Virus record (IMG/VR): IMGVR_UViG_3300010883_000396
Span: 1-25,721 of that record
From: a virus
Length of the DNA: 25,721 nucleotides
Strand: one strand, 5' to 3'
The notes under the pieces were generated by a model. It saw only the letters and a list, made by a program, of their open reading frames with translations, did not search any database and had not been told where the DNA came from. Position numbers and translations under genes: made by a program. Of the stretch, positions 1 to 25,721 are shown in pieces. Position 1 is the first letter of the stretch. Each line of letters opens with the position of its first letter.

Positions 1-3000
1 AGGATTTGGGGGTATAGCACCATCTCCAATTACCACATCAAGTGTGTTTTGAACACCCGCTGGAGAAGCTCCGTAATTCTGGAAGGTAAGTATGTCATAA
101 GTAGCTTCTCCACTTTCTCTACTAAATCTAGCAACAGGGTTATCAACACCTACTGAGACCCCAAAAAAATCGTAAGACACATCATAATCAATCAGGAATG
201 GGTGATTTTGATTATTTTGTCCAAAGTAGAGGGCGTCTTCCCAGTAAGGGTATTTACCATTACATCTATTGTATCCACTGTTTTGTATACCATAATCATA
301 TCGCTTAACCCCTTGTGGTCCATTGGTGCTAAGTACACTAGCCGGTGGTGTTTTCACCGCGAATACAGTATTATTCGCCGAATTAACTGGGTCAAGTTGA
401 TAGAAACAGCAACAACCTAGTGGGTTAGTTACCAAACTCTGCATCACTCCATTTGAGTCATTAACACAAGGACCTCCTTGAATCGCAGCATCATTATCAC
501 ATGGTACTGTCGCGAAAGGATTGTAATTACTAGAAACAATATCCATACAACCAAAAATTATAATTGTGTTACCATTCCCGTTGGTACCCCCTAGTTGGTT
601 CGGTGTTAACCCAACAGTTAGATTTAACGTTGCATCTACATAATGTTTGCCGTTTAGAAATGGGTAATCAACACCAATAGTAAAATCAATATCTTCAAAA
701 TAACCAACATCTAATAAATCTCTCCAATACCATAAACCATCAATAAAAGTGGCGTAGTCTGGAACCCCTAAAACTTTAGGGTCAGCAACTTCAATAAAAT
801 CAGAATATCTTCTTATTGTATACTCCTCGAATGGGTCGTATATCCATCCAGAAAATTGAGGTGTGCCGTAGTATTTCAAAATTTGTAAGCCACTATACTT
901 CCCTTCAAAAGTAGAAGTTGTAACCGTACTACCCCCTACGTCTACATACGTTTCTGGATAATTACTCAACCCTAATAAGATTTTATGCGTTCCTGTTTGA
1001 GTGGGTGTGAATGTTGCCGAGAATGTTCCTTGTTGTGCACTACCATCAATGTCCGCAGCATTCCCCGGAAATATAATTGTAGAAATTATTTGTGACCCTC
1101 CTGGGTCTAAAATTTTAACAATTCCCGTAGATGTTACTTGGGTATATTCAAAGGTCATGTATAGTTCCTGGTTCTGGTACGAAGTAGTTACGATAAAACT
1201 TTGTTCGATAAAATTACCGGTGCTAAAGTTGTTCTCTATCGGTCCAACCCAAGAGTTAGAAGAATTAAGTACCGCTCCGTTATTAGCTGTATTAGTTAAG
1301 GTACCGGAATTATTCGAGTAAATACCCCACCCTCCGAAGTTATTGTCCCTAACATCTAAAAGCCATTCGTCACATATCCCCTCACCACATTCGCGATAAC
1401 TAGTATTAAATCGATGTTTTAACGTTTCTACCGTTTTTTCTTCAAGAGTAGATTTATTATATTCAGTAAAATCAATATAATAAGTATCACCAAGAAACTC
1501 ACCATAAGCGTCCATCCACCCTTTTGTTACGTCCTTAACATACCCTACATAATCATCGGAGTCTTTACATCTTTTTGAGGCTATTTCTAAACCATCCCCA
1601 GTTTTAACTAATATCTGACTAAAGGAAAATACCCAAGAAAAAAATGTTTCAACGTCAGTAAAATCATAATTTTCTTTACCAGCTCTTTTTGTTAAACTAA
1701 GATATAACTGACTTATAGGTCTACCTAAATTATCTTTTAGTCCCTTAATGTCTATATCTTCTTCAACCACTAGGTTGGAGTTCGTGTCGTTATATATACT
1801 ATTACTCATTGGTAGTTTACTAACTTCAAATTCATTAATAGTTGTAAGTATTTTACCTTTTCTTAAGTAATACTCAGAAGGGTATGGGTTTAGTTTAGAT
1901 AATGTAATATATGTTACTTGAGGTAGGGTACCAAATGTGTATTGGTCTTCCCAATACGCAATACCATCTGATAATTCAGTTGATCTTATTATAAAAGAAT
2001 AATCGTTAACAATGTCAGTAACTTCATACGTCCCACTTAGATTATACAATAGGGGTCTTATTTGATTTGGGAAATGTGTGTCTACAGCATCCTCTCCAAG
2101 AGTTAATAGGATGTTATCTTCTTTTTTTAGTTCATGAATAACCAATAGTGTTACCATCGTACCTCCTGGTACTATACTAAAGGTAGTATTAAGTAGTAGT
2201 TCTGTAGTTATGTCTAGTGTTCCAACCTCAGAATAATTTTTAACTCGTTTAATAAATCCCTGTGATGAACGTACTTTCCAAGAACCACTATTGGGGGCCG
2301 CTGATGTTGTCCAATCTTCATGATACTTTGTTTTATGGTCTATAATAACGTAATATTTATTTTTATTATTTAACACTGAGTTCCATTTAGTATCTATTAC
2401 TCTCTTAAACCCATATAATGATGGGTCGCAAGTATCGTATTGGTTGTTAGAAACATTATATCCTGTAGATGATAACGGCTTAATGAAAAGATAGTCACCT
2501 TCTTCAAAATTATGTGGGAAGGGTGTGTATAACGCAGTAAACCAACCTTGTTCTGTTTTAATAGGTATACTAAAAAGAAAAGGTACTCCGTCTTGTACGT
2601 ACCCTTGGAATTGTTGGTTAGCAATAATTAGGGTTTGGTTATAATCTATTGGTTCTTGTTTAATAAACTGAGCACCAATAAACCAATCTTCTAAAGTAAT
2701 ACCATTAACCATCAAATCTAAGTAATCACTTATTTTTTGATACACTAAATTATCAATACCCGTATCAATAGAGAATCTACTGTCTTCAATATCCGCAGCG
2801 TACGCTTTAGAAGCGTTAAATTGTGGTATGTTATATTTTAATGTGTATTCGTTTTCATAAGGGTATAGTATTTGACCCACCCAATTATCTTTATTACTTA
2901 TTTCCATTTGGGAACTGGTAGGGTTTGGTCCGTTTAATGTTAAAATATTAGGTAAATTATAATTTTGTGTAGATAACGCATTTGTTTGAGAACTGGATGT

Positions 3001-3276
3001 TGCCCCAGTAACAAACTCAAATGCGTTATTTATTTGATTACCTAACCAATAAAAATCTTGGGGGTAATATATCATAGGGGTTATATTACCAGTTAATCTA
3101 TATTTAGTAGATTCTTGTCTTTCTTTTTCAAATTGTTGACCTGCACTAACAATTCTTATTACCTCCCCTGTTGGTAGTGGTTTATTACTATTTTCGAAAC
3201 CAACATTTATGTCATACCCAACATTTACCCCATTGGCGGTCTTAAAAGGCGTACCTACTATTTTTTTTCTTTCCAT
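1..3276 (-). CDS. Giant phage structural protein, C-terminus beyond window (1092 codons visible)
   Basis: Reading the minus strand from the ATG at 3276 gives an open frame of exactly 1092 codons to position 1 with no stop, so the protein continues beyond the left edge. It starts MERKKIVGTPFKTANG and lies 6 bases after the stop of the 1243-residue gene, so it is probably cotranscribed with it. The composition is beta-rich: many Asn, Thr, Gly and Tyr, few Lys-rich helices, and no signal peptide or membrane segment. Around residues 909-930 is a FGCMD...SNYNPFATVPC motif followed by a GCCCF cluster. It resembles the GCxDxxxxNYNPxAxxDDGSC Cys motif common in Bacteroidota surface proteins. The position after gp25 and gp6 suggests a baseplate or tail-fibre component. 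I do not recognise a named family for the whole chain, so function is inferred from context only. Confidence 0.85.
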   Translation of the reverse strand, partial: MERKKIVGTPFKTANGVNVGYDINVGFENSNKPLPTGEVIRIVSAGQQFEKERQESTKYRLTGNITPMIYYPQDFYWLGNQINNAFEFVTGATSSSQTNALSTQNYNLPNILTLNGPNPTSSQMEISNKDNWVGQILYPYENEYTLKYNIPQFNASKAYAADIEDSRFSIDTGIDNLVYQKISDYLDLMVNGITLEDWFIGAQFIKQEPIDYNQTLIIANQQFQGYVQDGVPFLFSIPIKTEQGWFTALYTPFPHNFEEGDYLFIKPLSSTGYNVSNNQYDTCDPSLYGFKRVIDTKWNSVLNNKNKYYVIIDHKTKYHEDWTTSAAPNSGSWKVRSSQGFIKRVKNYSEVGTLDITTELLLNTTFSIVPGGTMVTLLVIHELKKEDNILLTLGEDAVDTHFPNQIRPLLYNLSGTYEVTDIVNDYSFIIRSTELSDGIAYWEDQYTFGTLPQVTYITLSKLNPYPSEYYLRKGKILTTINEFEVSKLPMSNSIYNDTNSNLVVEEDIDIKGLKDNLGRPISQLYLSLTKRAGKENYDFTDVETFFSWVFSFSQILVKTGDGLEIASKRCKDSDDYVGYVKDVTKGWMDAYGEFLGDTYYIDFTEYNKSTLEEKTVETLKHRFNTSYRECGEGICDEWLLDVRDNNFGGWGIYSNNSGTLTNTANNGAVLNSSNSWVGPIENNFSTGNFIEQSFIVTTSYQNQELYMTFEYTQVTSTGIVKILDPGGSQIISTIIFPGNAADIDGSAQQGTFSATFTPTQTGTHKILLGLSNYPETYVDVGGSTVTTSTFEGKYSGLQILKYYGTPQFSGWIYDPFEEYTIRRYSDFIEVADPKVLGVPDYATFIDGLWYWRDLLDVGYFEDIDFTIGVDYPFLNGKHYVDATLNLTVGLTPNQLGGTNGNGNTIIIFGCMDIVSSNYNPFATVPCDNDAAIQGGPCVNDSNGVMQSLVTNPLGCCCFYQLDPVNSANNTVFAVKTPPASVLSTNGPQGVKRYDYGIQNSGYNRCNGKYPYWEDALYFGQNNQNHPFLIDYDVSYDFFGVSVGVDNPVARFSRESGEATYDILTFQNYGASPAGVQNTLDVVIGDGAIPPNP

Positions 3277-3282
3277 AATATT

Positions 3283-6200
3283 CTAAATTAAACCTGTTTT
3301 ATATCCCAATATTCTTTTTAGTTTTTCAGCTGGACTTAAATTATAAAAACAACTAAAGAAATAATATTTTCTTTTAGGGTAAGCATCAACCACAGCGTTA
3401 TTTCCTCCTTTTTCATTATTAAAAGCATTAGTGTCTCCAATAACTGTTAAGGGACCTGGTTGTATCGTTGACCACCAAAAGGTGTTATTATCATACCATT
3501 CTTTAGGTACCCTTCTTATCCAAGGTGTCCAAAGTGCGTTTTCGGACATAATCGGAGGTGATACCTTAAAAACATGGTAGTTAGAGAATGTTAAATAACC
3601 ATTAGGGTTGTACGTTACTTGCACAGGGTACATTAAGTTATTATACCAATTCGAACTTACCCAGTCATAGGTCATTGGTATTGTACTTTCAGGACAAAGT
3701 ATGTCACTACCATCCTCTCCTTCATCTCTTGGCCATTGTTGACTAGTCCTAAGTAAGAGATTATCATATGGTGCGAAATATTTGTGTTGTGTGAATTGGA
3801 TTCCTGTCCCATCTCCATTTGTGTCAAAATCTTCTTCATTATTTTCCCGAGTACTGAGAGGTGCGTTCATCTCTATCGTTGGGTTTGCTGAAGAACTTGG
3901 TAAATGTCTATCTATTGATGCCCACTGATTAACTCCTTGTTGGTAATTTGGTATGTCTTTTGTTATTTCTGTGATTTTTGTCTCTCCAATGGTGTTTACG
4001 TTATAGTATTTAGCATTTACGATTGTTTGCCCACCTAAAGGGTCATTCCCGGAGTTATTATAGTTTCTATATTCTGTACTGGAGTTAGCTAAGAAAGTAC
4101 CGGCATAAAGTAAGGAGTTATTTTGCCAATTTTCAGTCCTTTGACGTCCACTTATAGTATTAGTTTTGTCCCACCTTTGGTTGGGTTTGTTATTACTTCG
4201 ACTACAACATTCTGAATCACTATCCCCCACATAGTATTGTGGAAAATATAAAGACCCGTGGATAGCTTCTTCTATATTTCTATTATCATAATTCATAATA
4301 TCTTGAGCTGATATAACTCCGAAAGAAGAGACTTCTCTACCACCACAACCAGCTTCGTATGTTGGTGTACATGCGTAACAAATAGCAACGCTACTACTAC
4401 CCCTATCATTATTTACCGGATTCAAACTTTCGTCAGATAGTGTTGGTCTAACGGTAACCCTTACCCCCATACCTTCTTTTAATAAGATATTATACCAAGT
4501 GATTTGCCCATACTCAGTAACCTTAAAATTATAAGTTGGAACAACTGGATCAGCAGGTTGAGCCCCTGACCAAGTAAAATCTATTTGTGCGATGTTCTCT
4601 TTCTCAGGTACTGTTCGTGAATCCTCGCACCACCCGTCGTCTTTCGTTTTACCATAATAAGCGGTAGCTCCTGAAAAAGCCCAGTTACCATTACTATTAC
4701 AATCATATACCGTTGCGTCACAATAAGATAACCCCACAACAACCCAGTCATTACTACTGGAAGTTTTAGTAGTGATAAGATTTGCACTTAGTGCATATTT
4801 AGCGGCGTAAGTAGCTACAAAACCACCCATCATTATATTACCTGTTATTGTTTTAGTACTTGATTGACCCGTCGTCCCATCCCACGCAGTATTTGATGGA
4901 TTTATCAGACTAAAGTTAGTCTGACCATAATATGGGGTTGCGTCAACATTAAACCAAGAACCATTATTATTCTGACCATTATCTAGGTAATTACCTGAAG
5001 GTATGTAGGATCCAAAAGTCAAACACCCAATACAACCATCCATAGTTGCATTATCATACCAAAGACTTATCGTTGTATCAATAGCATTAGTTATTTCTTC
5101 ACCCCTTCCAAATTGTTGGGGTCCTCCATTAGAACCATCTAGATTTTGTGAATTTCCAAAACTTGAGTCACCAGCCCCGTTTACTAACTCCATATCAGTA
5201 TTACCACTATCAAACCCAAGACCTCTGTAACTAGCTTCAACCTCCCTATTAATAGTGTAGTTAGAGATAAACCCACCGATCATAGATAAATCAGAGTCTA
5301 ATAAAGTATTTTGTTTGGCTGGGGCTTTCATATAATAGTCACCAAATAGGTAATTCGTTGGGAAAAGATTTCTACTTGTTACATCCCCCTCTGAGTATAA
5401 ATCAGTAAACACATAACTACGACTAATTATCCAAGGATTTGTCCCCACACTATTACCAACCCAATCTGGACTATTTCCACCATAGGCACTGCTATAATAA
5501 TGACTATAATTTATAGCAGTGCCTTGGGTTTGTTCAAAATACCAATTAACCCCGTGTTGGTTGTCCCCTAAATCCTGGACCGCTGAGTCAAAGTCCGCAA
5601 TATAATTAAAATTCTGTCCAACAGTATAAAAACTACCCATACGAATTCGAGAATAATTACGATATTCCTCAAGTTTTAACCCAAATTGGTCTTTCATATT
5701 ATATGAGTACCCACCATTATCAACTTCTTCTGGTTCAGCATAAAAAGTATATTTGTTTTCATCACCCCCTCCATCACGTGTATTGGGCGCGTAAAAGACA
5801 CCCCTGTTTGTTTTTGAGTTTAGTTTTACGTCAGCAAACCCAAGTTCATTTACATCTGATTGTCCCTCAAAATAAAATTTGAATCTGTAGTCCGCGTAAG
5901 TCGCAACACCTTCTTGCTCGTCATCTCTCCAACCTTGTAAATCTTCATCCCAAATTTTCTTACCTAAATTCAAAGGTAATGGTATAACAAAACTACCATT
6001 TTCGTCTGTTTTCCATTTTCCTACATATTCCGGCCCATCTTCACCTATCCTAACAGCTTCTATTATTCCGATTGGTATCCCATTTTGACGACCATTTCTT
6101 AAACTTTGTGCCGAAACTGTTCTGGAAACACCAGCCTTAAACCCAATTTCCTCAGTGTTAGTGTAAGCAAATTTTTGCCAACAAGCAGAGGGAACGTAAG

Positions 6201-7014
6201 TATTATTACCAGTATCCGGGTCATCGTCAGTATAAAAACTACCAATAAGATAAGCTTTAGGGTTTACGAATCTTGACACAGCAAAATCTAGTCTCGTTAG
6301 TCCAAACTCACATTGGTCTGGATCTCCCCAAAAAGGATTAACAAAAGTGGTGTTATTTATCCCTATTACTTGGGCTAACTGGTTTAGGTCATTCGCTGTC
6401 TTAAATTCGGTGTCCGAATTAAAAAGGTATGGGGAGTACCCAAGGTTAATTAAATCTACCGGTGTTACCGAATTAGTACCTATATCACTTATATCAACGT
6501 CACAATGAATAATATGGGTACCACTAGGTAACCCAAAAAACATATAGTCTCCGTTTTCATTTGTGGTTGTAGTATACTTATAATATTTTTCATGAATATA
6601 TTTCAAAGTAGGATTAGTTAGTAAATCATATTTCGATGGGAATGTTCCCACCGGAACGTGGTCAGCGGGAGTACCTAGTTGTTTGTCCCTAGGTAATAAG
6701 TTATATCTTTTACCACTTGGTAGTGTGTCATTTGGCGTGGTAAATGGGTAGATACTTCTTATTGTTGAGTTCTGTATGTCCTCGTTATCTATAGGTATAA
6801 AGACTGAAATTTTAGCATTTTGTATTGGGAATCCTCCGTTTGCTCGCACTTTACCAACTAAAACTCCCTTATCCGAACAAAATATTCGATAAGCGTCTTT
6901 TTGTAATATCTTAAGACTTAAAACTTCTAAATAATCGAAGTCTTGCTCAATATTTAAGTTAATATTTTGAGTCCCTTCTTTGGGTAGTATTCTTATTACT
7001 TTGGATTCTTTCAT
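3283..7014 (-). CDS. Large baseplate/tail structural protein with N-terminal Ig-like (carboxypeptidase-regulatory-like) domain
   Basis: This 1243-residue protein directly follows gp6 in the same direction, the place where T4 has the large wedge protein gp7. I see no convincing gp7 signature. Residues about 50-176 look like a CarboxypepD_reg/Ig-like beta-sandwich: a GxVxxNGGxPIxNAxISVF start, then TNENGDYMFFGLPSGTH near 151-167. A second similar segment may lie near residues 310-350 (EYVGKWKTDENGSFVIPLP). The rest is rich in Asn, Tyr, Gly and Trp, with several close Cys pairs (CIGC, CYAC, ECC) that could bind metal or form disulfides. There is no signal peptide or membrane segment. A virion structural role, probably baseplate wedge or fibre attachment, is inferred from size, composition and neighbours. 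The 55-base leader carries a 14-bp palindrome and a variant of the recurrent upstream motif. Confidence 0.85.
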   Translation of the reverse strand: MKESKVIRILPKEGTQNINLNIEQDFDYLEVLSLKILQKDAYRIFCSDKGVLVGKVRANGGFPIQNAKISVFIPIDNEDIQNSTIRSIYPFTTPNDTLPSGKRYNLLPRDKQLGTPADHVPVGTFPSKYDLLTNPTLKYIHEKYYKYTTTTNENGDYMFFGLPSGTHIIHCDVDISDIGTNSVTPVDLINLGYSPYLFNSDTEFKTANDLNQLAQVIGINNTTFVNPFWGDPDQCEFGLTRLDFAVSRFVNPKAYLIGSFYTDDDPDTGNNTYVPSACWQKFAYTNTEEIGFKAGVSRTVSAQSLRNGRQNGIPIGIIEAVRIGEDGPEYVGKWKTDENGSFVIPLPLNLGKKIWDEDLQGWRDDEQEGVATYADYRFKFYFEGQSDVNELGFADVKLNSKTNRGVFYAPNTRDGGGDENKYTFYAEPEEVDNGGYSYNMKDQFGLKLEEYRNYSRIRMGSFYTVGQNFNYIADFDSAVQDLGDNQHGVNWYFEQTQGTAINYSHYYSSAYGGNSPDWVGNSVGTNPWIISRSYVFTDLYSEGDVTSRNLFPTNYLFGDYYMKAPAKQNTLLDSDLSMIGGFISNYTINREVEASYRGLGFDSGNTDMELVNGAGDSSFGNSQNLDGSNGGPQQFGRGEEITNAIDTTISLWYDNATMDGCIGCLTFGSYIPSGNYLDNGQNNNGSWFNVDATPYYGQTNFSLINPSNTAWDGTTGQSSTKTITGNIMMGGFVATYAAKYALSANLITTKTSSSNDWVVVGLSYCDATVYDCNSNGNWAFSGATAYYGKTKDDGWCEDSRTVPEKENIAQIDFTWSGAQPADPVVPTYNFKVTEYGQITWYNILLKEGMGVRVTVRPTLSDESLNPVNNDRGSSSVAICYACTPTYEAGCGGREVSSFGVISAQDIMNYDNRNIEEAIHGSLYFPQYYVGDSDSECCSRSNNKPNQRWDKTNTISGRQRTENWQNNSLLYAGTFLANSSTEYRNYNNSGNDPLGGQTIVNAKYYNVNTIGETKITEITKDIPNYQQGVNQWASIDRHLPSSSANPTIEMNAPLSTRENNEEDFDTNGDGTGIQFTQHKYFAPYDNLLLRTSQQWPRDEGEDGSDILCPESTIPMTYDWVSSNWYNNLMYPVQVTYNPNGYLTFSNYHVFKVSPPIMSENALWTPWIRRVPKEWYDNNTFWWSTIQPGPLTVIGDTNAFNNEKGGNNAVVDAYPKRKYYFFSCFYNLSPAEKLKRILGYKTGLI

Positions 7015-9543: not shown

Positions 9544-11454
9544 TTACATATCGTTTAATTCTAACTCTTCTGTGTCTTCAAGGTTTTTAAGATCCACATC
9601 TATTTCGCAATTACCACCAGAACAAGCTAACTCCCCACTTAAATCAGTATTGTCATCCAACTCTACAACATTAGATAAATCTACATTTGTTAAAGATTCC
9701 ATCATTTCTTCATATTTTTCTTTTGTTATATCTTCAAATGGTGCTTGTTTGTACGTACCACCATTGTAAGGTAATACCGCTAACCCATTATAATAATTTC
9801 TGTTTTCCCACATCCATTCACCAGCCGGATCCCATTCATGCTCTCTTAGTGAAATAGTTGCAGATACGTTATGACTATTAGAACCTTTTCTATGTCCCGA
9901 ATTTACCCATTCAGTCGCGACTTTTTTAACTCTTTCTAGTAATTGGAATGGTGATTCTGTTCTCATAATAGCTCCGTCAGGTGCTTTTTGTGGAATACTA
10001 ATAACCGCAGTGTCGTGTGGTCTAAAATACTCGTCCTCCACTAGTTCTGGGTGGTTAATTGTTAAATACGTATAAATAGCCTCATTTTTACCAACTCTAA
10101 GTCTTCTGATATAATAATCATTGTGCCAAGCGTGAATACCAGAACTAGTACCTAATGTTAGTGAAGTAGTCCCTGCAGGTTTAACTGTTGTTGTTCTAGC
10201 GGCTTGATTTATCCCTAGTAATTTAGCGACTCTAGTGTTTTCTCTTTTTACCAAACTAGCAGATTTAGCCATATCATAGTTAAGGACTTTACCTGACCCA
10301 ATACCTGTCATTGAGACACCAATTAAGGCATCTTTTTCTGTTGTTTCTCTCCAAATATCTCTTAAATAATGGAAAGAAGTGTACCCAGCTTGTAACGTAC
10401 CTATAAAAGTGGCTACCTTAACTCGTTCATTAAGATCTTCTTGTGATTCGATATTTGAAACATTTACCTCACAAAGATTACAGAACTGATTTGGTCTTAG
10501 TGCTATTTCACAACATGGATTAGTCCCCCAGTCTTTATCGTTATTTAGATAGATTCCTGGTTCTCCAGACCCCGACAACTCTACACGTTTCCATATTTCC
10601 ATAAAAAACCCTTTAGTTACTTTGTGTCTCATTAGAACCGCAGAATTGTTAGACCTTCCTCTTTGTGGGTTCATTTCCCACCAATTACCCGATTTACAAC
10701 CAATCATCGCGTCATCGTCTGCACTAAATAAACTAATCAATGCCGCTCTACGAATACCCCCCGCTAAAACTGCGTCGGCAATATAACAAATGATATCGTG
10801 TACTTCAATCGTGGATAACTGTGTACCATTATCCTTTTGGTTCAATATTCCTTCTATTTTAACCAAACATTCTTTAAGTGGTTGAGGACCTGGAGCTTTA
10901 CCACCTGAAGTGATTAATCTAGCTCCTTTTGGTCTAACGTCTGAATAGTCAAATTCAATCCTACTACCACCACCATTCATATATGACTTCATTAACACTT
11001 TGATTGAATCCGCCCACCCTTCGATAGAGTCCCCTATTAAAAATCTTCTTACCCTTTTTGCATATGGTTTTTGGATTACTGGTAATTTTTCAACATGATG
11101 TCTTTGTACGGAGTATCCTACCCCCGTTCCACCTAATAAAAGGAACATTGTTTCTGAAAAAGAATCTATGTGGTCAATCGGCATATAAGCACAATTATAA
11201 ATTCTGTTTGGTGATATTTCAATTGGTTTTCCTCCGAATTGCATACTCCTCATTGATGGTAGTACTTTCTTATCGTAAACTAGTTTATATTTTTCATTTA
11301 TTTCATCTTTTAATTTCGGATATGTTTTAATATGCATATTCTTATTCCTTGTAACTAGTTCTTCCCAAGTCTCTCTTCTATTTAACTCTGGGAGGTACTT
11401 TGCATATTTCATATACACAGTAATATCCGACAAAATTCTATTTGATACGTCCAT
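9544..11454 (-). CDS. nrdJ: Adenosylcobalamin-dependent (class II, monomeric) ribonucleotide reductase
   Basis: The enzyme reduces ribonucleoside triphosphates to deoxynucleotides for phage DNA synthesis, using a coenzyme-B12-generated thiyl radical. At 636 residues it is shorter than the 739-residue Lactobacillus leichmannii enzyme RTPR. The key residues are in place: Cys88 in YNCAY, the NPCCE active-site loop (Asn312, Cys314, Glu316), and Cys325 exactly 11 residues after Cys314, the same spacing as RTPR Cys408/Cys419. The C-terminal CSGGNC pair (Cys611/Cys616) has the CX4C form of the RTPR swinging-arm cysteines. The TTTVKPAGTTSLTLG stretch (421-435) is the phosphate-binding loop. The extra Cys315 and Cys328 are noteworthy. 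The gene sits between the helicase and the DUF5522-like gene. Host B12 supply would be needed. Confidence 0.96.
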   Translation of the reverse strand: MDVSNRILSDITVYMKYAKYLPELNRRETWEELVTRNKNMHIKTYPKLKDEINEKYKLVYDKKVLPSMRSMQFGGKPIEISPNRIYNCAYMPIDHIDSFSETMFLLLGGTGVGYSVQRHHVEKLPVIQKPYAKRVRRFLIGDSIEGWADSIKVLMKSYMNGGGSRIEFDYSDVRPKGARLITSGGKAPGPQPLKECLVKIEGILNQKDNGTQLSTIEVHDIICYIADAVLAGGIRRAALISLFSADDDAMIGCKSGNWWEMNPQRGRSNNSAVLMRHKVTKGFFMEIWKRVELSGSGEPGIYLNNDKDWGTNPCCEIALRPNQFCNLCEVNVSNIESQEDLNERVKVATFIGTLQAGYTSFHYLRDIWRETTEKDALIGVSMTGIGSGKVLNYDMAKSASLVKRENTRVAKLLGINQAARTTTVKPAGTTSLTLGTSSGIHAWHNDYYIRRLRVGKNEAIYTYLTINHPELVEDEYFRPHDTAVISIPQKAPDGAIMRTESPFQLLERVKKVATEWVNSGHRKGSNSHNVSATISLREHEWDPAGEWMWENRNYYNGLAVLPYNGGTYKQAPFEDITKEKYEEMMESLTNVDLSNVVELDDNTDLSGELACSGGNCEIDVDLKNLEDTEELELNDM

Positions 11455-16360: not shown

Positions 16361-17011
16361 CTATACGTTCAATTTTTCGAATTGTACGTCTAGTTTTGAG
16401 TAGTCTACCATTAGTGTCCCTTCTGGGCCGACAATAGACGCCGATGGGACTTCCTGTGCCATAACTCCACGATATCTACCATTACCGTATTTTTTATTAA
16501 TATAATCAAATTCGTAAATATTAATCCCTGATTTTGACTTACCTACTAAGTTTATGTTTTCTTTTAGTGTCATGTCAGACTGTTCGTAAGGGTATCCACT
16601 CCATCCAGGTCCATAACACAATGCAACCATTAAACCAATCAAAATACCTGCTAATATCCACATCATACCTACAACTGGGTCATTATCACCACCACCATTA
16701 TCAGTTACAACTTTATCAGCTGTTCTTTTAATTTCTTCTGGGGTTGGCATACCTTTTGTATTAGATTGACAATTGTATGTTATTTCATAACGACTTACCA
16801 ACTCCTCCATAGTTTTAGGGAATCCTATTACTTTGTTCAAATCACTCAAACCATTTATAGTAATTTTCTCACCTTTTTCTTCATAGTCACGTTTACCTGG
16901 TCGTGTTTTAGACATATCTCCTTTGTTACCTCCATATCGACTATCTTCTCTCAGTATTCTCCTAACAATATTAGTGATATCTGACTCTTTTAATTTTATT
17001 ATTCTTGCCAT
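16361..17011 (-). CDS. Membrane-anchored protein with C-terminal S74 chaperone domain, paralogue 2
   Basis: This 216-residue protein has three parts. Residues 1-48 are a basic tag, MARIIKLKESDITNIVRRIL then a KTRPGKRDYEEKGE stretch. The middle is variable and has one predicted membrane helix at about 112-132 (VVGMMWILAGILIGLMVALC). The C-terminal ~70 residues are a peptidase-S74/intramolecular chaperone domain with QSDMTLKENI (Ser145, Lys150), INIYEFDYI, YRGVMAQEVP and VDYSKLDVQ. S74 domains assist trimeric fibre folding and can cut themselves off before a Ser. Here the domain is on a short membrane protein instead of a long fibre. The ATG follows the stop of the other paralogue after two bases. 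A terminator lies downstream. The exact role is unknown. Confidence 0.88.
   Translation of the reverse strand: MARIIKLKESDITNIVRRILREDSRYGGNKGDMSKTRPGKRDYEEKGEKITINGLSDLNKVIGFPKTMEELVSRYEITYNCQSNTKGMPTPEEIKRTADKVVTDNGGGDNDPVVGMMWILAGILIGLMVALCYGPGWSGYPYEQSDMTLKENINLVGKSKSGINIYEFDYINKKYGNGRYRGVMAQEVPSASIVGPEGTLMVDYSKLDVQFEKLNV
16455..16524 (-). repeat. 70-bp exact direct repeat, copy in paralogue 2
   Basis: Identical base for base to 17105-17174. It encodes the NIYEFDYINKKYGNGRYRGV part of the S74 domain. The flanking homologous DNA of the two genes has many substitutions, about a dozen in the roughly 75 bases on the C-terminal-coding side, so this is an island of perfect identity. Confidence 0.9.
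16872..16907 (-). repeat. 36-bp exact direct repeat, N-terminal tag, copy in paralogue 2
   Basis: Identical to 17504-17539. It encodes the TRPGKRDYEEKGE part of the conserved N-terminal segment. It shows that both ends of the paralogues are conserved in DNA while the middle has diverged. Confidence 0.85.
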
Positions 17012-17013
17012 GG

Positions 17014-17643
17014 TTAATTTAATTCTTCGAATTGTACATCTAGTTTTGAATAGTCTACCATTAATGTACCTTCTGGTCCAACAAAAGATGCTGAAGGTAC
17101 TTCTTGTGCCATAACTCCACGATATCTACCATTACCGTATTTTTTATTAATATAATCAAATTCGTAAATATTAACACCTGATTCTGATTTTCCAACTAAT
17201 TCTATATTTTCTTTTAGTGTTATATCTGAATTCCATGACCATGGTGGCTCATGTGTGTTAATCCATCTTATCGTTAAAGCTACTGCTATTCCAGCAAACC
17301 ACCACAACATCATTTGTGGTCCATCATCACCACCACCTGTTTCTTCATCAATCTCTTCCGCTTTAGTTCTAAACTCTTGTGGTGTTGGTACTCCTGGTAC
17401 ATTATCTGAAGCATTATACATTTCTGTATATACTTTAACACAGTCTTTCAAAGTTCTACATCCTCCGAAAGCTTCTTTGATTGATTCGTGAGTCATTTCT
17501 TCCCCTTTTTCTTCATAGTCACGTTTACCTGGTCGTGTTCTAGATTTATCACCTTTGTTCATACCATAGTGACTATCTTCTCTTATAATTCTTTTAACAA
17601 TCTTAGTGATGTCTGATTCTTTAAGTTTTATTACTCTTGCCAT
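17014..17643 (-). CDS. Membrane-anchored protein with C-terminal S74 chaperone domain, paralogue 1
   Basis: At 209 residues this has the same plan as its downstream neighbour. There is an N-terminal tag MARVIKLKESDITKIVKRII with the shared TRPGKRDYEEKGE stretch, then a variable middle with two Cys (62 and 68). A hydrophobic segment at about 109-127 (PQMMLWWFAGIAVALTI) is probably a membrane helix. The S74-type domain starts at NSDITLKENI (Ser139, Lys144) and ends VDYSKLDVQFEELN. The likely self-cleavage site would be just before the Ser of the SD motif, as known for endosialidase-type chaperones. The gene lies 14 bases after the coiled-coil gene and 2 bases before its paralogue, so the set is one operon. 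A virion or envelope-interacting role is inferred, not shown. Confidence 0.88.
   Translation of the reverse strand: MARVIKLKESDITKIVKRIIREDSHYGMNKGDKSRTRPGKRDYEEKGEEMTHESIKEAFGGCRTLKDCVKVYTEMYNASDNVPGVPTPQEFRTKAEEIDEETGGGDDGPQMMLWWFAGIAVALTIRWINTHEPPWSWNSDITLKENIELVGKSESGVNIYEFDYINKKYGNGRYRGVMAQEVPSASFVGPEGTLMVDYSKLDVQFEELN
17105..17174 (-). repeat. 70-bp exact direct repeat, copy in paralogue 1
   Basis: Partner of 16455-16524, 650 bases away in the same orientation and the same reading frame of the S74 domain. Confidence 0.9.
17504..17539 (-). repeat. 36-bp exact direct repeat, N-terminal tag, copy in paralogue 1
   Basis: Partner of 16872-16907, in the conserved tag region of the first paralogue. 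Confidence 0.85.
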
Positions 17644-18709: not shown

Positions 18710-21700
18710 TTATGTTGATTCTTCATTTATTTTACTAGTTTGTTCTTTTATGAAATCAGCTACTGGTCCGGACTTAGTAATACTATCATACCCCCCATTA
18801 CTACCAAACACATTAGCATAAGACCAGTATCTAACTTCTGTTGGTTTGTAACTACTACTTGCTATTGGTTGTACTCCTCCATTCCAAGCTTCCACTAAAG
18901 CTTCAGATATTGTGTGGTCTTCAAATTTCTGATGATACGCAGCTAATCCCATAATTAAATATGGTTTACCATTTGTTGGGTCCGCTCCGTTGAAGTTGGA
19001 TTCAGATATTTTTTTAACTGTATTACCACTAAACCTTTGATAGTTACCTGGTCCTGCGTACCCACCCCAACTATAATCAGTATTGTAACATTTTTTACCC
19101 TTACCATTCCCCATATCACCACAAAAAGCACCTTCTACACAATCAGTATCAAGTGTACAAGATTTACAGTTTTGAGGTTTACATTTTGCGAAAGTGTAAG
19201 CTTGTACAGCTACGTAATCAGCGAGGCAAGAATATTCAGGATGTGCTGGGTCTTTCCAATAATTCTCATTAGTACTAACAGTCTTCCCCACATAAAGTGT
19301 AGTACCTACTTCTGTACCTGTTGGTAGGGTGTCTCTTAATTTTTTCATAACCGCTTTGGCCAAATCTTTCTTATTTACACTATCGTCGTATCCCAATGGT
19401 TTTTCTCCAGTTTTCCACCCTGAAGAATACACAGTTTTCCTATAATGCCCCTCAAGGTCAAATTCTATAGCATCTACTTTACATTTAGTACAGTGATTGT
19501 TTAACTCATTAACTAATTCTGGTATAGTGAAAGGAGTGTCAATATTTTGGGAAGCATAATCTTTTTTAAGATAATCGGTGGTTCCATTTATGTTCTTCAT
19601 CCCACTACCACCACACATAGGTTCGATATAGTTATAGTTTGGGTTAAAATATAACATTAGTGTTATGTAAATATCGGCTTCACTTAATAATTTAACCACG
19701 TTTTTTAATCCGTCTAAAGTATACCTAGCATTTTTCGTCCAATCAGCTTGTTTACCATTATCAAATTGTTTATAAGGTTGCCAATCCCATGAATCACCTT
19801 TCCATCTTGTACTACCTCCACTAACTTCTGCCCAATCAGTCTCAATCGCTAAGGCAACACTATTTACCCCTAATTTTTGTATCCCTCCCAAAGTTGATTC
19901 CTTGAAAGTTCCTGACCTCCATAACCCCACTCTTTCAACATCCCCTGATAAAACGTTTAAGTCTCTTGTGTCTAACTTTTCGTTATATATTATGGGACTT
20001 GATTCACTCGAATCTTGTATCGCAGTTAAAAACCCACTCACGTATGGTATTACTGATTGGGAGACTCTAACCCCTTCGAACGATGTCGACACATCTCCTT
20101 GTGTTACTTTATGTTCCACATTAGTTATAAGATAAGCACCATGAAACATTGGTACATTATTTAATTGGAAATATTGTAGTGGTAATATAGACATCATCCC
20201 AAAGGCTTCCACTTTACAAGTATAACTTCTTTTTTGATACACATTTAATAAATTTTGTCCTTTCAACATCGGATCTTTAGTTGTCCCCTCTTCGTGAGAT
20301 AAAGCATCTATGATTAATAATGATTCTTGTGTCTCTTGAAATTCCGCTTGATCTAGCGCAATAGATTTGAAGAAGTTTTGATTGTCTTGAGCGTAATTTA
20401 TAGCGAACGCTTTTAATTCTGGTTTTTGTATTTTACAATCCCCAAACCCTGAATTTCCAACACATTTCCAGTTTCCATACGAAGGTACCGAGATTGCACC
20501 ACCAGGTCCTCCTATCCTAAACCCCCCATCATCTTCTGCTTGTCCTTCTATTAGTAATACTGCGTTTGGTAAACTCTCTTGATTTGATATTGTGGTTATG
20601 TCTCCTTTATAAAAATCAGCTGGGCAATCGATACACGGTTCTGGTGTAATATCAAACCCATCGTTAGCAAACTCATAAGTACTACTCTCCATATCTAAAC
20701 TATCTGAAAACCCACCCATATACATCACATAGAATCTAGGGTTTTGGTCAATACTTTCTTTATCCACGGTTAAATGTGGGATAAACGACTTTTCAAAATT
20801 CTTACTAGCAAAATCCACTGTAGTAGGAAGTGGAAAAAACTCAAACTGATTATGAGCGATTAAATCATACATTAAAGTGTAAAGACTTATTTTAGGATTT
20901 TCTTTAAGGTTTAGTAAGGGGGTTGGGTCAATTACTTTATGACTTATATCTGTATATGCCCTATCAACAAAACTAAATTGTGAAAATAACCACGACTCTT
21001 TATTTTGGTTAAAATCATAGGTTGCGTTTAGTTTAACCTTTCTTAGTCCTTCAGCGGCAGAACCCGTTAACCACTTATCATGTATATTTTTTAAGGTGAG
21101 GTAGGTGTCTAACTTGATGTCATTGTCATCCAGTATCCCCTCCTCTTTTGCAATATTTTTCCTGTCTTCTTTTTCATCACCTTTATCTATATAATCCGCC
21201 AATTTATTAATAAAACCATCAAAGTACCTAGTTAGAAACTCTTTACTAGTGAATATTGTAGAAAAATTATTATAAACTTGTTTAGTAGAATCGTTAGTCC
21301 CTACCCCAAGCCATTGTCTCCACGTCACATTTTTAACCACAACCCTATTTTTCATGAAAGTCTCTAACATTTCATATAGTTCGTTTCTTTGTGTTGGCAC
21401 ACTACCACCAATAATATTATTATCTATTGCATATGATTCGTTGTTATTATTTGGAGATTCAATATAGTTTGGATTGTAGTGAGTTCTAGACATATAAAAA
21501 GTTGGTTTACCGTTAAATGCTGGAGTCTCAGAAGTTAGAAAAGACCACTCTTCTTTTAGGAAAGGGTGTGTCTCGTCATAATTAATACTACTATAGTCAC
21601 CAATATCATCTTCTTCCATCTTTCCTGTGAACCATTGACTTCTAATTGGGTGACGATAGTGTAAGTTCATATAAACTTCTTGACCCACTTCAGGAAAACC

Positions 21701-24700
21701 ATTATAACTGTCATTGTAATACCATTTACCGTTCTGTTCTATTTGTATTTCTTCTGAAGCAGGTGGACGCATTAAACCATTATTATTATCACCAACACCT
21801 GGCCAATCCCAAGAACCAACAACCCGTTCCTGGTTTGTTCCCATATTGAACTGAGCAATTCTATTGGTGTGACTAGCCTTTCTTATAAAGAAATAATTAA
21901 CCCCACCTCCCGCTGTTGGGTGATATAGGGTTTCTTGCATAGCTCCACCTTCATTGTTTATGTTCGTTGTCCTATCATGTAACCCCGTATATGACACCGC
22001 GTCAGTTTGGGCACCGGGTCTAGGTTTTTTACCATTGAAATTATCCTGTCCATGGTTTTTAACATTGTTAACAAATCCGTTATATAATAGAGGTAGTGTG
22101 AAGGTCCCGTATGAATGTTTTATCTCGTCGTTAACAAAGTTATGTAAATAGTTGTCGGTTGTTGCTGACATATCGGTTTCCCTTGTAGCGAAAGACACTT
22201 GACCATAAGGTTTTTTTACGTGATACGCGATGTCAGATCCGCCGAAAGCTTGAGACAAATTATAAGTACCCTCAATAGTACCTGTACTCAGTCCATTATT
22301 AAAATCAAATTGTTTCATATTATCCGAAAAGAAGTCACTTGTGACGACCCCAACTTGTGCTGGAGGTGTCCACACTGGTGTGTCGTTCAAAACAGCGTGT
22401 CCTGTAAATCCAACCCCTGGATATGCAAAATCTGAATCATAAGTACCAACTAATTGACGGTCACAAAAAGATGTCCATAGTCTGGATTTTGGGTTTAGGT
22501 TGGGGGTTGGGGGGGTACTATTACTCATACAACCAGCGCACTGGCTTAGTGAATAATCCGACATATCAAAACAAAATCCCCTATCTTCCCATAGGTTTTC
22601 CTCAACTTTAACTGTTGCCGTTAGAGCTCTTTTAATGTCTGGGAATGAAGGTCCTAAATTATATGTTTGTGTTTCTAAAGGTCTCCCTGTTGCCCACATA
22701 ATAAACGCATCTACGAATTGACTTTTTATTTCTGGGGCTAACATCTTAAAAACACTACCTATATCATCATAACCAAAATCTTCGGCTTCCTTAAAAAGCT
22801 GACCACCATTTAGACTTTTCCAATCAGTCCTCTGTCCCGCAATAAACCAACAAGTATTATTAAAATCCGAGGCACCCATCCAGTTTAAGTCATTTTCTAT
22901 ATTAGCATTAAAACCCCGTTTGTTAATTCTTCTGTAAGTCGTTGACCATACATATGTCATATCTCCATATCCAGTTGGTTGTTTGGCCGATATCATATCT
23001 CCTTTTGGTTGTGGTCTTTCTCCCTTCTTTGGTATCCTAAAAGTCCACTGTCCATTCTTTTTAACCCCAGTAGTAGTAAAATAATTAGGCCACCTAATTA
23101 TGTCGTTTTCTTCTTGGTATCGATACAACCACGAACCTATTTGTAAAACAATGTATTCTGGAACCGTTGAGTATCCAGCGAATTGGTCAAAAAATCTTGT
23201 AATGTCAAACTTTTGAGTAAAGGGTGTTGATCTAGGGGTACTGGAAGCTGCATAATATTTACCTACGTTATTAATATATAAATAACCTAACGCTAAATTA
23301 CTAGCCGCTTGTGGATTTACCACCCCACTCCCTGCACTGTTTAACGCTTCTGTATATCCATTACTATCGGCGGCCCTACTATAAGGAATGTATTGGTACT
23401 CTCCATTGTCATCTTGTACCGTATAATTATTTATTGTTGTGTTTTCCCAATCATTTTTAATCCATAAAAAATCTTCCAGTATTAGAGTTTGTCTATCGGA
23501 GTTCCACCCCCATTCCCTTGACGATCCCTCCCCCTTACTTCTAAGTTTAGTTGGCATTGAGTATTTGAGTGCGTGTGGTGCAAACTGATCCGGTTTTGTA
23601 TGATTCTCACTACTGAAGTTATTTGTTTCTAGGTCAACCTCAACTTTTTTCTGATATTTCGCTCTAGACCACAAAGAAAAGAAATCCCACCCAAGCCAAC
23701 GTTTATAATCATAATCTAACGTACCTTGTGGTCCTATAATTAATTTACCAACTCTACTATATTCAGAATCTTCCCCACCAGATTCACCATAACACATTTC
23801 ATACCATTTAATTAATTTTTCACCCGCACTGTCTGTCTCTACTTTTTGTGCTTCAGATAGTTCATTGTTTTCCTCGTAGAACGCCACTGAAGAGATATAA
23901 AATCCTTTACACTCCATTGCATAATCAGCACCACTACAAGTATCGTAGAATATGTTAGTACTAAGTTTTGTGTCTATGTTAGGTAACCAAAATTCATTTA
24001 TAGTATTAACTTCTTGCCCTATTTCCCCAACAACACTATTATACGTATACACATTTGCTAATGGTTCTTTAGCTCCTCGGTAACCGATAAACTCATCACC
24101 GTCTGTACCTGATTTTGTCTCTATATAATACCCAGCGTCTTTTAATAATTTCAAAGATTGGTCTACCGCGCTACCCCCCTTTCCTCTTTGTGTGTTTGTT
24201 GAGTAACTATTGGTTAGAATTTTAAGTAATTCTTTAAGTCTTTTTTTACCAGTGTCTAACATTCCGGCAAACAATGTCTCCGCTTCTAACTCCCCAAGGG
24301 CCCCGAGAGCGTCGAATCCCCCATTATCTTTGGATGGTACCGACTCAGAACTGTCGTTACTTAACGCCGTTTTTATTACAGATATGGTGTCATCGTCTTC
24401 ATCTCCAAAACCAGGATAGTCAGTGGTTTGACTGTACACTGGAAAATTGTTTGTATGTCCTAACCTCATCATGGACCTAATCATAAGAAGGGGTATTATT
24501 TGTGTCTCAATATTTGTGAGTCTTAGATAAGGACTGATAGGGAGTAGTGGTGTTTCTTCAACCAATGCTGGTATATATCCATTTGTGAATTCATTATCCT
24601 CTGGATCAAAAGATTGTTTTAATTCCTTTTGTTTTTTTATTATAAACGATATAAGATTTTCAACTAAGGTAATTTCTGGCCATTTTTTTGGTGTTATGAA

Positions 24701-25721
24701 GTCTGGCCTACCATAAGTCGAGGAGTCTACCTTCCAACCAGGAAATTGTTTTTCCACTCTACTCACTGGTTGTGGTTTACCTGTCGTCCCTAAAGGTATA
24801 GAATCGGTTCTAGTTTCATAATATAATGGAAAGGCATACATTTTAGACTCATTACTCTCCAGACTTTTTATATCTGAACCTCCACTGTTAAGCAAAAGAG
24901 ATTTAATCTTTTCGTCATTATTGTGTTGATCATACGCCAAAACCCCAACTTCAACTAAAACTTTTTGGAATGCCGTTATCCCATTACACAATAACTTAAA
25001 AACATTTTCAAGGGTGGGTGGCATAACAAGAGTATCTAATTTTAATGCGTTCTCTTGTTCGTTCATTTTTCTTTTAAGGTCTACCTCTTTTTGTTTCCCC
25101 CTTGCTATGTAATTTCTTAATTGCTTAAAATATTCCTGAGCATCTATCTCCCCAATTCCAAACCTTTGAGTACTTCCTTTAAGTTCTTGGGAAACGAGAA
25201 AGTCTACCTTTGACTTTCCGAAGACTTCGTAGTTATCATCACCTTGGTTTATTAGACTAGGTGACGGTGGACTACCTAAAAATCCGGTGGTGATTTCGTC
25301 GATATTGTCATAAATATTCTTAACAAAACCAAGAAAATTTGATTCATTTGAGGACACGGTATTTACTTGAGCTTTGTTTGTGTCGTTTCCTCTAAGTTGT
25401 AATAATAGTAGTCTATAGACATCTTGGTAGTTTTGTCTCCTCAGTTCCTTGGCCTCGGAAATTGTTACCATGTTCCGAGGTCCTGTCCAAGTATCAAAAT
25501 CTCCATCTACTTTTTTGAATAGTGCTTTACACGTTATCACCATACTAGTAGAATATCTATAAAGACAAGCGTTAGCCGACACACCTTCACACCCTAAGTT
25601 CACAAAAATACGACTAAATCTTTTTTCTATTCTTTCTAGTTCTTTAATGGACTTCTGTACTAAGTAGTAGTCATCGGCTATCGAGTCGTCGGCAAAGTGG
25701 TCCATTTTTGCCGCCAATGTA
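18710..25721 (-). CDS. Giant baseplate-hub/tail protein with C-terminal GH18-like glycosidase, N-terminus probably beyond window
   Basis: The frame is open to the right edge. A TTG at 25717 and an ATG at 25705 are possible starts, but the G+C-richer DNA before them is unlike the AT-rich leaders of the other genes, so the protein probably begins outside. About 2335 residues are visible. Numbering below is from 25717. The first ~1800 residues are unassigned virion-like sequence rich in Asn, Tyr and Trp. Residues about 1826-1887 (YTCKVEAFGMMSILPLQYFQ, then VPMFHGAYLITNVEHKV) resemble the end of late-control-D/gp27-like hub proteins. From about 1927 (VGLWRSGTF) to the end is a TIM-barrel glycosidase. 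It has VDAIEFDLE (2081-2089), a GH18-type DxxDxDxE variant with Asp2087 and Glu2089, and a late-barrel Trp in VRYWSYANV. A six-Cys insert lies at 2179-2210. It probably cuts host cell-wall or surface glycan at injection. Confidence 0.88.
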   Translation of the reverse strand, partial: TLAAKMDHFADDSIADDYYLVQKSIKELERIEKRFSRIFVNLGCEGVSANACLYRYSTSMVITCKALFKKVDGDFDTWTGPRNMVTISEAKELRRQNYQDVYRLLLLQLRGNDTNKAQVNTVSSNESNFLGFVKNIYDNIDEITTGFLGSPPSPSLINQGDDNYEVFGKSKVDFLVSQELKGSTQRFGIGEIDAQEYFKQLRNYIARGKQKEVDLKRKMNEQENALKLDTLVMPPTLENVFKLLCNGITAFQKVLVEVGVLAYDQHNNDEKIKSLLLNSGGSDIKSLESNESKMYAFPLYYETRTDSIPLGTTGKPQPVSRVEKQFPGWKVDSSTYGRPDFITPKKWPEITLVENLISFIIKKQKELKQSFDPEDNEFTNGYIPALVEETPLLPISPYLRLTNIETQIIPLLMIRSMMRLGHTNNFPVYSQTTDYPGFGDEDDDTISVIKTALSNDSSESVPSKDNGGFDALGALGELEAETLFAGMLDTGKKRLKELLKILTNSYSTNTQRGKGGSAVDQSLKLLKDAGYYIETKSGTDGDEFIGYRGAKEPLANVYTYNSVVGEIGQEVNTINEFWLPNIDTKLSTNIFYDTCSGADYAMECKGFYISSVAFYEENNELSEAQKVETDSAGEKLIKWYEMCYGESGGEDSEYSRVGKLIIGPQGTLDYDYKRWLGWDFFSLWSRAKYQKKVEVDLETNNFSSENHTKPDQFAPHALKYSMPTKLRSKGEGSSREWGWNSDRQTLILEDFLWIKNDWENTTINNYTVQDDNGEYQYIPYSRAADSNGYTEALNSAGSGVVNPQAASNLALGYLYINNVGKYYAASSTPRSTPFTQKFDITRFFDQFAGYSTVPEYIVLQIGSWLYRYQEENDIIRWPNYFTTTGVKKNGQWTFRIPKKGERPQPKGDMISAKQPTGYGDMTYVWSTTYRRINKRGFNANIENDLNWMGASDFNNTCWFIAGQRTDWKSLNGGQLFKEAEDFGYDDIGSVFKMLAPEIKSQFVDAFIMWATGRPLETQTYNLGPSFPDIKRALTATVKVEENLWEDRGFCFDMSDYSLSQCAGCMSNSTPPTPNLNPKSRLWTSFCDRQLVGTYDSDFAYPGVGFTGHAVLNDTPVWTPPAQVGVVTSDFFSDNMKQFDFNNGLSTGTIEGTYNLSQAFGGSDIAYHVKKPYGQVSFATRETDMSATTDNYLHNFVNDEIKHSYGTFTLPLLYNGFVNNVKNHGQDNFNGKKPRPGAQTDAVSYTGLHDRTTNINNEGGAMQETLYHPTAGGGVNYFFIRKASHTNRIAQFNMGTNQERVVGSWDWPGVGDNNNGLMRPPASEEIQIEQNGKWYYNDSYNGFPEVGQEVYMNLHYRHPIRSQWFTGKMEEDDIGDYSSINYDETHPFLKEEWSFLTSETPAFNGKPTFYMSRTHYNPNYIESPNNNNESYAIDNNIIGGSVPTQRNELYEMLETFMKNRVVVKNVTWRQWLGVGTNDSTKQVYNNFSTIFTSKEFLTRYFDGFINKLADYIDKGDEKEDRKNIAKEEGILDDNDIKLDTYLTLKNIHDKWLTGSAAEGLRKVKLNATYDFNQNKESWLFSQFSFVDRAYTDISHKVIDPTPLLNLKENPKISLYTLMYDLIAHNQFEFFPLPTTVDFASKNFEKSFIPHLTVDKESIDQNPRFYVMYMGGFSDSLDMESSTYEFANDGFDITPEPCIDCPADFYKGDITTISNQESLPNAVLLIEGQAEDDGGFRIGGPGGAISVPSYGNWKCVGNSGFGDCKIQKPELKAFAINYAQDNQNFFKSIALDQAEFQETQESLLIIDALSHEEGTTKDPMLKGQNLLNVYQKRSYTCKVEAFGMMSILPLQYFQLNNVPMFHGAYLITNVEHKVTQGDVSTSFEGVRVSQSVIPYVSGFLTAIQDSSESSPIIYNEKLDTRDLNVLSGDVERVGLWRSGTFKESTLGGIQKLGVNSVALAIETDWAEVSGGSTRWKGDSWDWQPYKQFDNGKQADWTKNARYTLDGLKNVVKLLSEADIYITLMLYFNPNYNYIEPMCGGSGMKNINGTTDYLKKDYASQNIDTPFTIPELVNELNNHCTKCKVDAIEFDLEGHYRKTVYSSGWKTGEKPLGYDDSVNKKDLAKAVMKKLRDTLPTGTEVGTTLYVGKTVSTNENYWKDPAHPEYSCLADYVAVQAYTFAKCKPQNCKSCTLDTDCVEGAFCGDMGNGKGKKCYNTDYSWGGYAGPGNYQRFSGNTVKKISESNFNGADPTNGKPYLIMGLAAYHQKFEDHTISEALVEAWNGGVQPIASSSYKPTEVRYWSYANVFGSNGGYDSITKSGPVADFIKEQTSKINEEST

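Follow-up and report, generated by a model that had tools for sequence, protein, structure and literature searches.

Does the giant baseplate-hub-like protein of this virus end in an enzyme, and if so, to which family does the enzyme belong and what would it cut? The window analysed here is the whole 25.7-kb record (25,721 nt) of an uncultured IMG/VR virus (IMGVR_UViG_3300010883_000396), and the hub-like gene (18710..25721, minus strand, as are all of its parts given below) is the largest gene in it. A first-pass annotation had proposed that the protein carries a GH18-type glycosidase barrel at its C-terminus and uses it to penetrate the cell wall. The best explanation, to which we assign a probability of roughly 0.58 as a whole, is that a phage with a T4-type baseplate carries a TIM-barrel glycosidase whose family is not represented in the searched libraries, fused to the C-terminus of its giant hub and probably cutting peptidoglycan glycan strands under the tail tip during infection.

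The hub gene is 5'-truncated at the window end. A full-length homologue (on contig L003) has 2611 aa and an ATG start compared to 2335 residues in the window, so that about 276 N-terminal residues are absent from the window ORF and 2335 of about 2610 residues are present; the length of 2335 residues first given for the protein therefore reflects an ORF cut by the window edge. Residue numbers (Glu2089 and others) are counted from the TTG at 25717. Giant hubs have a well conserved N-terminal part of ~230 residues, separated from the C-terminal region by a long middle that is less conserved. Conservation of the C-terminal hub region is highest in one segment (QKRSYTCKV...FEGVRVSQSVIPYVSGFL; 20027..20236), which was kept across 17 diverse giant hubs and contains the stretch GAYLITNVEHKV...FEGVRVS, which lies directly before the barrel as first described, with a linker of 27 residues (19946..20026) that is variable among relatives.

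Profile matches of the C-terminal hub region were weak, with four of the 17 members matching phrog_196 'baseplate hub' (best 4e-4) and 13 matching phrog_52 'tail protein' (best 2.7e-3). No solved structure matched the hub by sequence. Genes coding for gp25- and gp6-like wedge proteins are present in the window, and on L003 the hub gene comes after a gp53-like wedge gene (phrog_7145, 1.4e-6). We infer with moderate support that the carrier protein is a baseplate hub.

Several other genes of the window were also recorded. Two more giant proteins (1092+ and 1243 aa; 1-7014, minus strand) are encoded beside the baseplate genes and had no PHROG match, the second giving a weak CarboxypepD_reg match (E=3e-4) that was below the cut-off. 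Between the replication genes and those for the baseplate wedge lies a gene (9544-11454, minus strand) for the large subunit of a ribonucleotide reductase, which has an insertion domain of class II (B12-dependent; PF21995, E=2.3e-6). Two tandem, related small proteins of 216 and 209 aa (16361-17011 and 17014-17643, minus strand) end in an S74 peptidase/intramolecular-chaperone segment but are not fibres; PF13884 matched the 216-aa protein over the cut-off (E=8.9e-6). Copies of these S74-ending proteins were found on L002 (two), L009 (one) and L010 (one), with none on L003.

The last 411 residues of the hub protein (18713..19945) make up the domain in question, a (βα)8 barrel and putative peptidoglycan glycosidase. 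An AlphaFold2 model of the window domain with six relatives was of low confidence (pLDDT 59, pTM 0.68) and displayed the full β/α order of a (βα)8 barrel, in which β4 spans domain residues 157-164 and the Glu is residue 165. For the compact homologue L067 (275 residues), a 13-sequence alignment yielded a confident, clean (βα)8 barrel (pLDDT 88.4, pTM 0.89) with β4 at residues 101-105 and the equivalent Glu at 107. Both the TIM barrel proposed for the C-terminal ~400 residues and the placement of Glu2089 (codon 19451-19453) at the end of strand 4 were thus borne out by structure prediction. The β4 sequence VDAIEFDLE (19451..19477) contains Glu2085, Asp2087 and Glu2089, and this E-x-D-x-E was invariant in the 13 relatives. 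The first-pass annotation had read the whole of VDAIEFDLE as a near match to the GH18 active site; its D-x-E end is kept, but conservation is confined to E-x-D-x-E and does not extend to the first Asp. The pattern [DE]xx[DE]xDxE occurs a single time in the giant ORF, and the fuller motif did not occur in 1000 shuffles, so that the motif is more than a chance occurrence. On β6 (DYVAVQAY; 19196..19219), Gln2172 was invariant and Tyr2174 nearly invariant in the 13-sequence alignment. A Cys-rich insertion in the β6-α6 loop (19082..19183) is present in hub barrels and missing from compact homologues, with one member giving a weak match to the Cys-rich repeat TIGR04201 (NCBIfam; E=0.007). Glu, Arg, Ser and Asn of β8 (EVRYWSYAN; 18812..18838) are conserved in hub barrels, and ExR-x-WS is retained in the compact forms. 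With a dN/dS of 0.09-0.23 the barrel shows purifying selection, and the β4 motif is retained even in relatives that are only 30 % identical.

Searches with the hub and the barrel found seven more hub barrels (L002, L003, L009, L010, L011, L018 and L064, the last truncated upstream), ~30-80 % identical where full length; L019 is a near-copy of L018 and L001 is identical to the window. With the barrel profile, L065 was identified as well, and L065 in turn led to a further four (L067, L068, L069 and L072), all on other phage contigs. Three of these, L065, L067 and L072, consist of 271-280 residues and are stand-alone proteins. An Amidase_2 (N-acetylmuramoyl-L-alanine amidase) gene starts four bases downstream of L067 (E=6.9e-8, over the Pfam cut-off), and L065 is preceded by small membrane-protein-like ORFs, a possible lysis cassette, in which the spanin match was not significant. 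L072 lies near a terminase-like gene with no evident lysis neighbour. L068 and L069 both have PG_binding_1 at the N-terminus (E=4.5e-8 and 5.8e-8; over the Pfam cut-off). Behind this domain the barrel is circularly permuted (L068:534-1613 and L069:5731-6837), with β7-β8 first and then β1-β6, and an independent profile search of the L069 contig likewise matched the C-terminal part of the profile upstream of the remainder. Homology between hub and compact barrels was firm by hhalign (99.2 %, E=7e-20, 255 columns), and L065 matched the window by blastp (E=9e-9). Across all three architectures the β4 E-x-D-x-E, the β6 Gln of Q-x-Y and one Gly after β6 were invariant in the 13 sequences. No barrel or hub homologue was found in the bacterial genomes, cultured phages or plasmids searched, and L069 matched cultured phage endolysins through its PG-binding part only. 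In three of the hub-barrel phages the contig encodes an Amidase_2 protein at a separate place; this amidase is a candidate for the ordinary endolysin, in which case the hub barrel would be left to act in entry.

Among the relatives, the fusion to a PG-binding domain and the neighbouring amidase gene make peptidoglycan the most likely substrate. The wall penetration proposed in the first-pass annotation is a plausible purpose; of the targets it had listed, peptidoglycan is the one that these relatives point to, and nothing supports chitin or N-glycans. Alternatively, the barrel could be a glycosidase whose target is a glycan of the outer surface (capsule, exopolysaccharide, LPS sugar or S-layer glycan), opening a way to the membrane and leaving peptidoglycan uncut. 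Specificity may have changed in the hub barrels, which have long insertions and the Cys-rich insert that the compact forms do not have, and the fold neighbours include enzymes for many glycans. However, the closest non-hub relatives resemble lysins in having PG_binding_1 or a neighbouring amidase gene, and the same catalytic-type residues are found in hub and non-hub forms, and we consider a surface-glycan substrate unlikely, though the likeliest of the alternatives.

The barrel was without a sequence match in Pfam, NCBIfam, PHROG or PDB; matches of the compact profile to antibody chains in PDB were dismissed as weak chance matches. A true but very diverged GH18 enzyme of the chitinase or endo-N-acetylglucosaminidase type would account for several features, since the domain shares with GH18 chitinases and SleL-type N-acetylglucosaminidases the (βα)8 barrel (seen in both the window and L067 models), the D-x-E ending β4 at the place of the GH18 catalytic Glu, an aromatic residue on β6, the strand that in GH18 bears a Tyr contacting the N-acetyl group (Q-x-Y in nearly all members, with Asp for the Tyr in compact L065), and the WS of β8. 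The β4 and β8 motifs of the compact profile also fell in register with GH18 in hhalign, and SleL, a GH18 cortex-lytic enzyme, was the first Foldseek match of the low-confidence window model. Against this, PF00704 gave no match at E<=10 in a search in which controls matched in six genomes, so that the profile check first suggested for GH18 came back negative with its controls working, and Pfam scans of all members likewise lacked this family. In hhalign comparisons with seven GH18 domains (E. coli ChiA and relatives) the compact profile reached a probability of 5.9 %, the hub-barrel profile 0.4 % and the joint profile 2.4 %. The β3 SxGG of GH18 is absent (ITLMLYFNP in the window, LTVWPEP in compact forms), and the β4 pattern departs from DGxDxDxE: conservation does not include the first Asp, and all 13 members have Glu for the middle one, giving E-x-D-x-E where GH18 has D-x-D-x-E. 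With the confident L067 model SleL was no longer first: GH18 structures appeared only from rank 24 on, and the SleL match was dropped as proof of family. GH18 membership, as originally proposed, was rejected on these profile and motif grounds, and a diverged GH18 is accordingly an improbable reading. Fold neighbours were mostly glycosidases; those of L067 (GH5, GH20, GH53, GH164 and GH18 barrels together with several non-glycosidases) lay close together at TM 0.5-0.63, and L067 resembles many glycosidases and no single family. Among viral predicted structures the best match was an uncharacterised 255-residue phage protein. In its action the domain probably resembles the glycosidases among these neighbours, yet it cannot be filed under GH18.

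Membership of the GH-A clan of retaining glycosidases (e.g., GH5 and GH53, with an acid/base Glu on β4 and a nucleophile Glu on β7) was also considered and rejected. The β7 region reads GLAAYxxK, and no conserved acid was present at the β7 end in either the hub-barrel or the 13-sequence alignment, which argues against a two-carboxylate GH-A mechanism. Strand β4 closes with a Glu that has an acid two positions earlier, an arrangement reminiscent of the substrate-assisted N-acetylhexosaminidases of GH18, GH20, GH84 and GH85. In the mechanism that we propose, the hub would hold the barrel at the distal tip of the tail, and contraction of the tail would bring the barrel to the cell wall. Glu2089 would then serve as the catalytic acid with the assistance of Asp2087 (and Glu2085), and Gln2172 and Tyr2174 of β6 would sit in the cleft that binds the sugar, the whole resembling the substrate-assisted N-acetylhexosaminidases.

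A scan with the conserved hub N-terminus identified 46 loci of the giant-hub family, with complete ORFs of ~1780-2750 residues. The barrel was restricted to the group with a hub N-terminus at least 55 % identical, and since more distant hubs end in other sequences, the C-terminal slot varies between phage groups. Hubs of L025-L043 end in another domain, different from the barrel. Hubs of L044-L061 carry in the barrel slot a conserved C-terminal domain of ~200 residues (e.g., L060:15662-16915) with an NNxFG/NNNFA motif, often followed by Pro/Thr-rich or β-rich tails. This domain had no Pfam or PHROG match, and its identification as a glucosaminidase, suggested by an NNNFG seen by eye, was not supported in that search. 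One hub ORF near a contig end (L024:10001-15343) is without the conserved C-terminal hub segment and ends, as judged by eye, in a Hint/intein-like sequence (CFTYGHKVRQTFNKVKNIEDINIGDTVLSYD...YIVNNVYTHQ). Domains in the same slot that have no enzyme-family match speak for a reading in which the barrel is itself no longer an enzyme and serves as a structural or sugar-binding hub tip, but the β4 acids and β6 Gln are invariant in hub-fused and stand-alone forms alike and dN/dS is low, leaving this the least probable of the readings.

For a glycosidase on the hub tip, the three architectures would amount to a new GH family marked by the β4 E-x-D-x-E, occurring as a stand-alone lysin, as a permuted lysin with a PG-binding domain and as a fused giant-hub tip, with the slot exchanged between phage groups, a proposal to which we would give even odds. 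Weighing against the glycosidase reading are the spread of structural similarity over many TIM barrels, non-glycosidases included, the lack of the β6 Tyr in L065, the weakness of the hub profile matches and the low confidence of the window model; moreover, no curated family matched the barrel and all members are putative enzymes.

In T4, gp5 carries a tail lysozyme domain of the lysozyme fold and is separate from the gp27 hub. The likeness to gp5/gp27 lies in a wall-cutting domain placed, as it would be here, on the central hub of a T4-type baseplate, and on the best reading the hub barrel would be comparable in role to the gp5 lysozyme; the difference is that a TIM barrel is here fused to the C-terminus of a ~2600-residue protein. 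A precedent for a glycoside hydrolase in the virion is found in a Bacillus jumbo phage, whose virion GH25 enzyme degrades material of the host wall and has a baseplate protein as interaction partner (PMC4870245). That enzyme differs in being a separate protein with LysM that is not fused to the hub (PMC4870245), and no sequence relation to it was found. Judged by the gp6-like wedge protein, Microcystis phage Mel-JY01 and Flavobacterium phage immuto came closest among cultured phages (26-27 % identity). Next to its baseplate genes Mel-JY01 has a gene for a 'putative chitinase' (COG3179), but in both phages the enzymes are separate genes; no giant-hub or barrel homologue was detected in either, and comparison of the region with the giant hub was unconvincing.

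The locus probably encodes a tail-tip wall hydrolase of an apparently undescribed TIM-barrel family, fused to a giant hub. The compact relatives, at 271-280 residues, are small enough for direct expression and assay. If activity is confirmed, the lytic enzymes of phages would gain a glycosidase family that includes a natural circularly permuted form, and some large phages would be seen to fuse a wall-cutting enzyme to the hub itself, in a slot exchanged between lineages.
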